From the NCBI RefSeq assembly GCF_040838345.1, contig NZ_JBAKFF010000001.1, positions 744,001 through 808,000 of the forward strand: a stretch of 64,000 nt of DNA, written 5' to 3'. The translations under genes and the position numbers were made by a program. This document shows, piece by piece, positions 11,715-13,968 of this stretch. Every line of letters starts with the position of its first letter. Within the stretch, counting starts at the first letter, position 1. Under the pieces are notes generated by a model. It was given only the letters and a program-made list of their open reading frames with translations. It did no database searches and was not told where the DNA came from. The stretch is from Spiribacter sp. 1M189 (GTDB lineage Bacteria; Pseudomonadota; Gammaproteobacteria; Nitrococcales; Nitrococcaceae).

Positions 11715-12758
11715 ATGTTCAGCGTACTAAGACGCCTGCTCTTCATGATGCCACCTGAGCGCGCCCATGATCTGGCGCTGGGGTCGATGGATGGCCTCGC
11801 GCGGATTGGTGCGAAGGGGGTCATGCCGCCGCGCGTGGAGGACGAGAGGCGCGTGATGGGGCTGCCTTTCCGCAATGCCGTTGGCCTCTCGGCGGGGCTC
11901 GACAAGGATGGCGATCATATCCGCGGACTCGCGGCCATGGGGTTCGGTTTTGTCGAGTTGGGTACCGTGACGCCCCGTGGGCAGCCGGGAAACCCGACAC
12001 CGCGTCTCTTCCGCCTGCCGGAGCGCGAGGCCCTCATCAATCGTCTGGGATTCAATAATCAGGGCGTCGATCACCTGTGTCAGGCGGTGAGGGCCGTCCG
12101 GGACCACGTCGACATCCCGATTGGGATCAATATCGGCAAGAACCGCGACACGCCGCTGGAGCGGGCATCAGAGGATTACTGTCACTGTCTACGGGCCGTA
12201 CACGGCATCGCCGATTATGTGGTCGTAAACCTGTCCTCGCCGAACACCCCGGGACTGCGCTCGCTGCAGGCGGGGAATGAGCTGATCGGGCTCGTCCAGC
12301 GCCTGCAGGATGAACAGCGCGCTCTGCAAGCGGACGGCGCGCGTCACGTCCCGCTCGTGGTCAAGATCGCGCCGGACCTGACCGATGATGAACTGCGAGC
12401 GCTTGTCGACGCGTTGCTGGACTGTGGCATCGACGGCATTACCGCAACGAATACCACCATCGACCACAGTGCAGTCTCCGGCAGCCGCCATGCTGAAGAG
12501 ACCGGCGGCCTGAGCGGTGCACCGCTTCGGGCTCGAGCCACGGAAGTCGTTCGACAGGTCCGCCGGCAGGCCGGCCCGGATCTACCGATCATCGCCGTCG
12601 GTGGGATCATGACGGCGGCGGATGCGGTGGAGAAAATGGAGGCCGGTGCCGATCTCGTCCAAATCTACACGGGTCTCATCTACAAGGGCCCGAGCCTGGT
12701 CCGCGAGGCTGCCGCCAACATCCGCGACCACTGCCCGGCGTCCCGGGACTTGTCCTGA
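11715..12758 (+). CDS. pyrD: Dihydroorotate dehydrogenase (quinone), class 2
   Basis: Membrane-associated flavoprotein that oxidises dihydroorotate to orotate in pyrimidine synthesis and passes electrons to quinone. The N-terminal amphipathic segment MFSVLRRLLFMMPPE is typical of class 2 enzymes. Also seen: GLSAGLDKDGD, NRLGFNNQGVDH, the active-site serine region VVNLSSPNTPGLRSLQ, VVKIAPDLTDDEL and the FMN-binding end AVGGIMTAADAVEKMEAGADLVQIYTGLIY. Length 347 is slightly above the E. coli enzyme. tRNA-Ser starts 30 bp after its stop with no clear promoter between, so the tRNA may be partly transcribed from here. Confidence 0.95.
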   Translation: MFSVLRRLLFMMPPERAHDLALGSMDGLARIGAKGVMPPRVEDERRVMGLPFRNAVGLSAGLDKDGDHIRGLAAMGFGFVELGTVTPRGQPGNPTPRLFRLPEREALINRLGFNNQGVDHLCQAVRAVRDHVDIPIGINIGKNRDTPLERASEDYCHCLRAVHGIADYVVVNLSSPNTPGLRSLQAGNELIGLVQRLQDEQRALQADGARHVPLVVKIAPDLTDDELRALVDALLDCGIDGITATNTTIDHSAVSGSRHAEETGGLSGAPLRARATEVVRQVRRQAGPDLPIIAVGGIMTAADAVEKMEAGADLVQIYTGLIYKGPSLVREAAANIRDHCPASRDLS

Positions 12759-12788
12759 CGCCTCGCCCAATGGACAATCACCCCCGCT

Positions 12789-12878
12789 GGAGAGGTGGCA
12801 GAGTGGTCGAATGCGGCGGACTTGAAATCCGTTGAGTCCTCACGGGCTCCGGGGGTTCGAATCCCTCCCTCTCCGCCA
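12789..12878 (+). tRNA. tRNA-Ser (anticodon UGA)
   Basis: A 90-base class II tRNA. The acceptor strands GGAGAGG (12789-12795) and CCTCTCC (12868-12874) pair, followed by discriminator G and an encoded CCA (12876-12878). The anticodon loop CTTGAAA at 12821-12827 gives anticodon TGA (12823-12825), reading UCA/UCG. The long variable arm expected for serine lies between about 12832 and 12851, and the T-arm GGGGGTTCGAATCCC follows. Its last 19 bases are repeated twice downstream as the start of a 180-bp tandem repeat. Confidence 0.96.
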
Positions 12879-13331
12879 GGCAAAGAAAGAGGGGCCTTGC
12901 GCCCCTTTTTCTTTGCCTGATGAAAGCCGGGGTTCGAACCCCCGGAGCAGGCAAAGGATGGTTCGACCAACTGCCGACAGGCAGTTGGGACGCCGAGCGT
13001 GGCGAGGCGCCCGAAGGGTGAGGCTCGAAGGGCCGAATCAATCCCTCCCTCTCCGCCAGGCAAAGAAAGAGGGGCCGTGCGCCCCTTTTTCTTTGCCTGA
13101 TGAAAGCCGGGGTTCGAACCCCCGGAGCAGGCAAAGGATGGTTCGACCAACTGCCGACAGGCAGTTGGGACGCCGAGCGTGGCGAGGCGCCCGAAGGGTG
13201 AGGCCCGAAGGGCCGAATCAATCCCTCCCTCTCCGCCAGGCAAAGAAAGAGGGGCCGTGCGCCCCTTTTTCTTTGCCTGATGAAAGCCGGGGTTCGAACC
13301 CCCGGAGCATGCAAAGGATGGGTTCGACCAA
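12860..13331 (+). repeat. Tandem 180-bp repeat array beginning with the tRNA-Ser 3' end (rtT-like)
   Basis: Exact period of 180 bp: copy 1 is 12860-13039, copy 2 is 13040-13219 and a partial copy 3 is 13220 to about 13331. Each starts with the same 19 bases that end the tRNA (AATCCCTCCCTCTCCGCCA). Copies 1 and 2 differ at two positions I can find (12897/13077 and 13025/13205). Each full unit then holds a long hairpin with a T-rich arm, an inverted copy of the tRNA T-arm, a 9-bp hairpin (CCAACTGCC/GGCAGTTGG) and a GC-rich stretch of GGCGAGGCGCCCGAAGGG type. The layout parallels the E. coli tyrT locus, where about 178-bp repeats carrying 19 bases of the tRNA 3' end give rtT RNA. This fills the gene-free stretch between tRNA-Ser and the barrel gene; reading frames inside it look like by-products. 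Confidence 0.9.
12878..12918 (+). terminator. Terminator hairpin after tRNA-Ser (also at 13058-13098 and 13238-13278)
   Basis: Near-perfect inverted repeat: AGGCAAAGAAAGAGGGGC pairs with GCCCC-TTTTT-CTTTGCCT, one mismatch, with a short loop. The inner GGGGC/GCCCC stem followed by TTTTTCTTT works as an intrinsic terminator. The same structure recurs in every 180-bp repeat copy, so read-through of the first site would meet two more and yield transcripts of about 180 and 360 extra bases. Confidence 0.75.
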
Positions 13332-13338
13332 TCCCGGT

Positions 13339-13917
13339 CTAGAAGCGGTACTCGACACCGGCAGAGAAGCTGGGCGTATAGCGGAAACTCTCGAAGGTAT
13401 CGCCGAGCATGCTGCTGCTGGCCGCCGTGCCCGACGTGGAGCGATCGGAATCGAGGGTGTCGGCAACCCCTTCAAAGGTGAGTCCCATGTCCAGTGACAG
13501 GCCGAGACGCCCCTGTGTGCCGAGGTCATTGTCCCAACCGACGCCAAGGTAGGTCCGCATATCCTCGGTGTCGAAGCCGGGCATGCTGAACGAGTTGGTC
13601 TCCAGGGGCTCTTCACCGTATAGCGCGCCACCCGTCATTCGCAGCCCGCTGTCGTGTATCGACCAGTCCACCAGCGCGGAAAACTGCATGGACTCATCCA
13701 CCAAGGAAAACGCCGGGCGCCGAGTCTGACCGATATCCGACGAGTCGCGATTGACTCCGAAGCGGATGTCGAGGCGATCGCTCAGGTGAGAGGTGAGCTC
13801 GAGCTCAGGCTGAACCCCCAGTCGCCAGTCGGGCGACTGACCGTACACCACAGGAGCACTCGCCAGCGTTATGGCGACTGCCGTCAAAACCTTTCCTGTC
13901 ATGCACTTAACGATCAT
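13339..13917 (-). CDS. Predicted outer-membrane beta-barrel protein
   Basis: A protein of about 192 residues with a signal peptide (hydrophobic AVAITLASAPVVYG) and no further hydrophobic helix. Alternating short strands rich in aromatic and small residues (LDIRFGVNRDS, MQFSALVDWSIHD, LRMTGGALYG, GRLGLSLDMGLTF, FSAGVEYRF) and a terminal Phe are typical of outer-membrane barrels inserted by the Bam complex; eight strands would fit this size. A specific family is not recognised. The start is uncertain: ATG 13917 gives the best signal peptide, ATG 13902 is possible, and neither has a well-placed Shine-Dalgarno. It ends just after the 180-bp repeats. Confidence 0.65.
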   Translation of the reverse strand: MIVKCMTGKVLTAVAITLASAPVVYGQSPDWRLGVQPELELTSHLSDRLDIRFGVNRDSSDIGQTRRPAFSLVDESMQFSALVDWSIHDSGLRMTGGALYGEEPLETNSFSMPGFDTEDMRTYLGVGWDNDLGTQGRLGLSLDMGLTFEGVADTLDSDRSTSGTAASSSMLGDTFESFRYTPSFSAGVEYRF

Positions 13918-13968
13918 GCCTCTATTATTGCGCAAACCGTTGGGAAAACGAACCCCTTTCAGCCCGAT

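Follow-up and report, generated by a model that had tools for sequence, protein, structure and literature searches.

rtT has so far mostly been seen as a curiosity of one Escherichia coli operon, tyrT-tyrV. In the E. coli genome rttR is annotated at 1287066–1287236 beside tyrV (1287244–1287328), and since the first unit measures 178 nt from CCA to copied CCA, the final base of the copy is also where the annotated RttR stops. A stringent-response effect of E. coli rtT is cited, second-hand, in a passage of PMC4986893. A table in PMC2658671 gives a 175-bp difference in 'rtT RNA' repeat number for two Salmonella serovars, and part of a preprint (PMC11623569) reports an antisense sRNA at the tRNA-Tyr adjoining the rttR region. 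Northern signals are described for Actinobacillus pleuropneumoniae Arrc20 and Arrc21 in the relevant passage of PMC4986893; the authors of that paper assigned them to Rfam RtT, and like the array studied here they lie near tRNA genes (in their case Asn and Lys). In contrast to our array they are described as upstream of the tRNAs, and the comparison with them is one of published description (PMC4986893). The literature covered by our search, represented partly by excerpts and with the 1991 rtT paper outside its scope, contained no description of a host-tail rule, host-matched antisense or loop insertions.

Here we analysed such an array in a 64-kb window (the whole stretch of DNA under study). 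A sequence-only reading of the window had likened it to E. coli rtT, and this likeness held: in both, tandem units of 178–180 nt (178 nt for the tyrV/rttR unit) stand behind a tRNA and copy the same tRNA positions 58–76 (our own numbering throughout). The two also share an antisense piece, the motif GGTTCGA, a core with GCCCGAAGGGYGA and the junction GA(A/G)T-AATCC. The array differs from RtT/RttR in its tRNA-Ser host, in an intrinsic-terminator-like hairpin in each unit, in an Rfam score below the cut-off, and in an antisense piece that covers the variable arm together with the 5' strand of the T-arm instead of the acceptor side. The family looks wider, and odder, than the E. coli operon would suggest.

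The array behind tRNA-Ser(UGA)

ARAGORN called a single tRNA in the window, a tRNA-Ser(UGA) with encoded CCA at 12789–12878 on the + strand. The array lies on the same strand at 12860–13331. The 2.6 copies with an exact 180-bp period, each opening with the tRNA 3' end, that the sequence-only reading had described were confirmed as unit 1 (12860–13039), unit 2 (13040–13219) and a truncated third copy (13220–13331). Units 1 and 2 had been called nearly identical, and 2 of their 180 positions differ (12897, T to G in unit 2; 13025, T to C in unit 2). The 19-nt tail AATCCCTCCCTCTCCGCCA, equal to tRNA positions 58–76, occurs exactly at 12860–12878, at 13040–13058, where it closes unit 1, and again at 13220–13238. 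By analogy with the annotated RttR, an RNA 3' end is predicted at 13058, the last base of the tail copy, and again at 13238.

A long terminator-like hairpin, not assigned to either strand, occupies 12877–12919 in unit 1 and recurs at 13057–13099 and 13237–13279. It may act in both directions because it is a near-palindrome with A- and T-runs; a terminator scan flagged 12877–12919 on the − strand only. On the + strand there follows an antisense copy of the tRNA variable arm and T-arm (12929–12948; again 13109–13128 and 13289–13308), a 20-nt inverted copy 95% complementary to tRNA bases 12846–12865. Next comes GGTTCGAC, the 5' half of a split T-arm (12960–12967; again 13140–13147 and 13321–13328), and with it the structured core. 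As an independent test of family identity we built R1, a covariance model of 39 cores (2 from E. coli) from non-serine hosts outside the genus, cut after AATCC. In the window R1 matched 13138–13224 (unit 2, E 6.5e-12) and 12958–13044 (unit 1, E 2.6e-11), both on the + strand, with a next best E of 0.51. The core contains, also on the + strand, the hairpins H1 (12967–12988; again 13147–13168), H3, GCCCGAAGGGTGAGG (13009–13023; again 13189–13203), and H4 (13022–13034; again 13202–13214). From GGTTCGA to AATCC the unit corresponds to a split T-arm with an insert of about 85 nt, composed of H1, GAAC, H2, H3 (GCCCGAAGGGYGAG), H4 and GA(A/G)T. Sequence comparison shows that in each full unit this structured core splits a T-arm, with the 3' strand and CCA of the host tRNA itself after it and an antisense copy of that tRNA's T-arm before it.

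The truncated third copy (+ strand) retains tail, hairpin, antisense and GGGTTCGAC and lacks the core (R1 only E 1.2 there), with 97% identity over 111 query nt. Within it, 13320–13337 reads GGGTTCGACCAATCCC, which is T-arm-like without a core; this reflects either core loss here or chance.

The consensus energy of 96 cores was −32.9, whereas 60 column shuffles averaged −8.3 (sd 2.6, lowest −14.4), a weak null because shuffling destroys local order as well. Of 12 pairs in A1, 10 are kept via two-sided changes in at least one sequence, and an extra covarying pair in Rfam RtT is mentioned in part of a method paper (PMC7657543). Single-sequence folding of the window cores is unremarkable: isolated cores gave z −1.4 for unit 1 (19 of 200 shuffles as stable) and z −2.2 for unit 2, or z −2.7 with the antisense included. 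The tRNA together with unit 1 gave z −5.7, none of 200 shuffles being equally stable. As to the closing stem that RtT forms between upstream antisense and copied tail, most of the antisense in the window corresponds to the opposite side of the T-arm, and still the predicted fold closes by a bulged stem to the tail.

A scan found no sigma-70-like promoter within 12600–13500, and a strong hairpin precedes each unit; the units may therefore be little transcribed. Open frames of the 180-bp unit overlap on both strands and continue through the repeat. A coding role was rejected, as unit lengths show no preference for multiples of three (45, 49 and 58 of 152 elements, gathered as described below, in classes 0, 1 and 2 modulo 3), and we take the open frames across the array as by-products. 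The 180-bp unit contains no integrase gene.

Searched with the Rfam RtT model (RF00391), as the sequence-only reading had proposed, the units aligned over the full length of the model, ending at the copied CCA. Their scores of 24.1 and 23.8 bits stayed below the cut-off of 45, which places them outside formal Rfam membership by score. The Gln element of the same genome scored 41.9 bits and that of the same-genus genome G001 45.7, over the cut-off. Across 95 genomes (own and 94 relatives), 45 matched RtT at E ≤ 1 and 9 exceeded the cut-off; at E ≤ 0.01 the matches numbered 61 of 276 genomes in a draw from the class (18 over cut-off) and 28 of 199 in a draw from the phylum (14 over cut-off), own genome included in both. 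Among 14 named control genomes, E. coli alone matched. R1 found nine matches genome-wide at E ≤ 1, all on six tRNA loci (four Ser, Arg-ACG and Gln-CUG), and in the class it matched 61 of 140 genomes at E ≤ 0.001, with a patchy spread. These sequence matches make it very probable that the array represents a diverged branch within the RtT family, and by analogy it likely works like rtT.

The sequence-only reading had left open either an RtT relative or an independent origin; the first survives and the second does not, given the full-length RtT alignment, the R1 matches and the RtT matches in related genomes. A chance duplication merely resembling rtT would suit the sub-threshold Rfam score. It is opposed by a series of intermediate loci and, above all, by R1 matches at E about 1e-11, which we take as ruling it out, its likelihood being close to nil. 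As for other sub-threshold Rfam matches, sX4 and Plastid-psbl-rps4 overlie the tRNA itself, and those remaining besides RtT were taken as chance.

Host-matched tails and antisense T-arms

A search of the own genome with the unit returned four arrays at E ≤ 0.001, on tRNA-Ser UGA, CGA, GGA and GCU. Inspection downstream of all 43 tRNAs (RF00005 matches) revealed the element at six, the additional two being tRNA-Arg(ACG) and tRNA-Gln(CUG). At each of the six, the last 18–19 nt of the own tRNA are repeated downstream, and an 11–16-nt exact inverted piece of the own T-arm lies between the tRNA and the tail copy; none of the other 37 tRNAs has both together. These numbers bear on the proposal that the array is a local device of the tRNA gene, supplying spare tails for repair and a terminator that works in both directions and shields it from the convergent gene at 13339–13935. 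The near-palindromic hairpin with A- and T-runs would suit such a device, as would the convergent ORF adjoining the array. Neither a conserved core nor antisense would be needed for it, however, and 37 of the 43 tRNAs do without an element, so we consider this explanation very improbable.

The cross-genome comparison suggested by the sequence-only reading gave a match past the tRNA part in 13 of 13 same-genus genomes: searched with tRNA plus unit 1, every one of them has a match that extends over core sequence (the core part only in G008). A single random recent duplication lacking conservation, which that reading had named as its possible undoing, is contradicted by these matches, by the six loci in the genome and by the arrays across the genus. 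Whole first units in the genus averaged 76% identity for the same Ser locus in another genome (34 pairs), 79% for another Ser locus in the same genome (10 pairs, 68–99%) and 74% for another Ser locus in another genome (109 pairs). Units 1 and 2 are 97–100% alike in 7 of 18 genus arrays; what follows unit 1 in the remaining 11 has decayed or is no unit. Homogenisation is clear within arrays, and between loci only single pairs show it (G001 UGA/CGA, 98.7%).

Beyond the genus, 124 of 161 loci fetched via RtT matches show a tRNA and then a copy of its own last 19 nt (at least 16 matching), and 37 are without a tRNA or without an own-tail copy; L180, a weak own-genome RtT match (E 0.2) with no tRNA seen, was left out of the 161. 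Together with loci fetched by DNA similarity, these gave 152 distinct elements in 88 genomes, related genomes being counted separately and elements failing both searches being missed because the set was gathered with these two. Their hosts are tRNAs for Ser (78), Gln (23), Tyr (18), Arg (16), Lys (7), Pro (4), Glu (3) and Asp, Val and Ala (1 each), counts that retain one wrong tRNA-Arg assignment (L144, a neighbouring tRNA) and the doubtful tRNA-Ala (L153). The tail is identical at 19 of 19 positions in 112 elements and at 18 in 31 (22 of which differ at position 58 alone), with fewer in 9, and there are 51 distinct tails among the 152. Identity to the host by position holds in 147–152 of 152 elements for positions 59–76, in 129 for position 58, in 3 for 57 and in 4 for 56. 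In nine amino-acid families and a doubtful tenth, the copied tail is thus that of the host tRNA itself, and the copy has a sharp boundary in the T-loop at position 58/59. Directly before the tail copy stands GAGT in 55 elements and GAAT in 33.

tRNA-targeting integrative elements leave an attachment-site direct repeat of the tRNA 3' end that starts in the T-loop, and the array carries a direct repeat of this kind. The tail copies could accordingly be read as attachment-site duplications made by a T-loop integrase, and the array as a tandem minimal element. The copy edge in the T-loop speaks for this, as do several arrays behind tRNA remnants with foreign sequence and the similarity that often runs on past CCA into the hairpin that follows (in 131 of 152 elements at +1 and in about 100 at +10), the latter being also what tandem repetition would give. 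Unlike attachment sites, however, the unit is gene-less and has no integrase, its structured core is conserved while the tail varies with the host, which one integrase specificity would not give, and the inverted T-arm is left unexplained. We hold this origin to be improbable.

In ungapped comparisons, the spacer scored a mean best antisense match of 12.7 against its own tRNA, 7.8 against tRNAs for other amino acids and 6.4 when shuffled; scores of at least 10 were reached in 120 of 152, 237 of 1520 and 8 of 760 cases, respectively. With one element per distinct tRNA 45-mer (n = 114), the antisense sum was 1444, against a maximum of 1044 in 2000 permutations. The acceptor side alone (n = 50) gave 360 versus at most 303 in permutations, and the variable-arm side alone (n = 108) gave 711 versus at most 635. 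The own tRNA ranked within the top 5% for only 43 of 114, so that much of the signal reflects the common T-arm, with a host-specific part on top. The stretch between tRNA and core usually holds an antisense copy of the T-arm of the host itself. The sequence-only reading had noted neither this host-matched antisense nor the split T-arm, nor that the element extends to many tRNAs.

Other lodgings of the core

Sequence comparison shows that the same core recurs behind many different tRNAs, each time with the tail of the tRNA in question. Core nearest neighbours (n = 137) were the same tRNA in another genome in 44 cases, another amino acid in another genome in 35, the same amino acid with another tRNA in another genome in 22, and the same genome in 36. 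Across amino acids, cores within the genus share a mean identity of 0.37, less than the 0.47 found for the same tRNA species between the genus and outside. The mixed neighbours and this difference argue against a simple recent Ser to Arg/Gln spread within the genus. One array of G001 (L067 and L068) has apparently been split by rearrangement: about 635 kb separate the near half of a unit of tRNA-Ser(GCU) from a core with matching tail.

Some genomes hold more complete tRNA copies upstream of the intact gene, and in these the core sits within the T-loop or the D-loop. Among 345 unique tRNAs, 23 rows had an upstream copy of the first 20 nt, the copy itself being no called tRNA. In nine rows, at seven tRNAs, the copy reaches the T-loop and is broken there by core sequence (L097, L170, L178, L201 twice, L207, L215 twice, one of them masked, and L257), with R1 cores at all seven. 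Four rows are D-loop insertions (L121, L188, L268 and L269), all with R1 matches, partial in L269; in L121 the D-loop core is followed by a T-loop that again enters core-like sequence. The remaining 10 rows are of neither kind or unclear. Where flanks were read, the upstream tRNA copies lose the last acceptor bases and CCA.

In eight other complete genomes, 42 of 67 R1 matches had a same-strand tRNA within 900 nt of the sequence examined and 25 had none, compared with 0 of 9 lacking one in the window genome. Seven of the 25, all in G161, share MITE-like flanks (five read): they form a MITE-like dispersed repeat, about 290 bp long, whose inverted ends read TAGCCCGGATATTGCACCAAGG ... CCTTGGTGCAATATCCGGGCTA and which carries an RtT core without tail (L250–L254, L255, G161:C1:2524542). 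Four share one gene-like context in G164 and G175; the one ORF opened per genome (L262:679–1359 and L291:1402–1815; G175/G164) reads through an RtT-like core, and a Pfam search of these two ORFs found no family. In one case, L107, a group II intron reverse transcriptase stands between the tRNA and the unit: L107:35–1435 matches Pfam RVT_1 and GIIM directly before the RtT unit with its tRNA-Arg tail, as if the intron had entered between tRNA and unit. Two lie behind a cut tRNA-Arg (L315), and eleven fall outside these groups. RtT-like elements also stand behind tmRNA genes, called by ARAGORN, in genomes outside the window's class (L151, L156). The units of L091, L130, L159 and L315 follow a mere remnant of a tRNA that is preceded by foreign sequence, which looks as though integrative elements had inserted into the host tRNA. 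Plasmid records matched in 61 cases, none over more than 80% of the query, and the best 20 of the 61 stop at or shortly past the tRNA.

Rickettsia palindromic elements are short, hairpin-rich and can sit in frame within genes; the cores inside the ORFs of G175 and G164 resemble them by description, whereas the window copies differ in being tRNA-linked and carrying host tail copies. Such lodgings raise a serious alternative, in which the cassette is mobile, selfish or neutral, and has no function for the cell. It would be a short hairpin element that uses its folds to move at the DNA level, and it would persist at tRNAs because the intact tRNA end stays or gets copied beside it. The dispersed MITE-like copies, the cores inside ORFs, the T-loop and D-loop insertions, the patchy spread over the class genomes and the decayed second units in 11 of 18 genus arrays all fit it. 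It accounts less readily for the antisense adapted to each host, the presence of the element in 13 of 13 genus relatives and the annotation of RttR as an sRNA, or for the Northern signals of RtT relatives in Actinobacillus given in a passage of PMC4986893. We see an appreciable chance that this alternative is right, short of an even one.

Proposed movement and possible products of the cassette

Overall, we lean slightly towards a structured, probably mobile cassette of an RtT branch that is lodged in tRNA loops; from its downstream form a small RNA could arise that ends at the copied CCA. Under this reading, the most economical one, the core would be a cassette that lodges in tRNA loops, here the T-loop of a partial tRNA copy, and units beside the intact tRNA would be multiplied and kept alike by recombination. 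Polymerase passing the terminator-like hairpin would copy the units, and tRNA 3'-end enzymes would trim the unit RNA at the copied CCA, giving an RNA of roughly 160–180 nt. Small RNAs from the locus had also been proposed by the sequence-only reading; the chances of an RNA product from the units, judged by analogy, seem to us evenly balanced. Its end would mimic the acceptor/T-arm end of the host tRNA, as that of the annotated E. coli RttR does. In the weakest step, the RNA might serve as a decoy or competitor for acceptor-end-binding proteins (end-processing enzymes or RelA), which would fit the reported stringent-response effect of rtT; from the analogy we rate such a decoy role as unlikely. 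The role of the RtT family is testable in E. coli.

More tentatively, RtT may be just one lodging of a mobile, conserved RNA cassette of about 85 nt that inserts in tRNA elbow loops (T-loop GGTTCGA^A and D-loop GGCTGA^A), as well as within ORFs and MITE-like repeats and downstream of tmRNA. Own-tail copies and host-matched antisense would hold it beside the intact gene and give each tRNA a tailored tRNA-mimic RNA; we regard this broader proposal as possible, though rather doubtful. If many tRNAs do carry own-tail, own-antisense units round one core, they would form a widespread tRNA-linked RNA layer, be it a mobile family that favours tRNA loops, a set of RNAs each tailored to its tRNA, or the two at once.

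The sharp T-loop edge, the D- and T-loop insertions and the antisense offer handles on how the cassette moves. The exon-like 3' piece (58/59–76) and the antisense might be traces of an RNA-copying step into the tRNA. At L096, L098, L124 and L196, upstream copies of the tRNA 5' half stop within or close to the anticodon arm and continue as hairpin-rich sequence of another kind, which may be a further element with similar habits.
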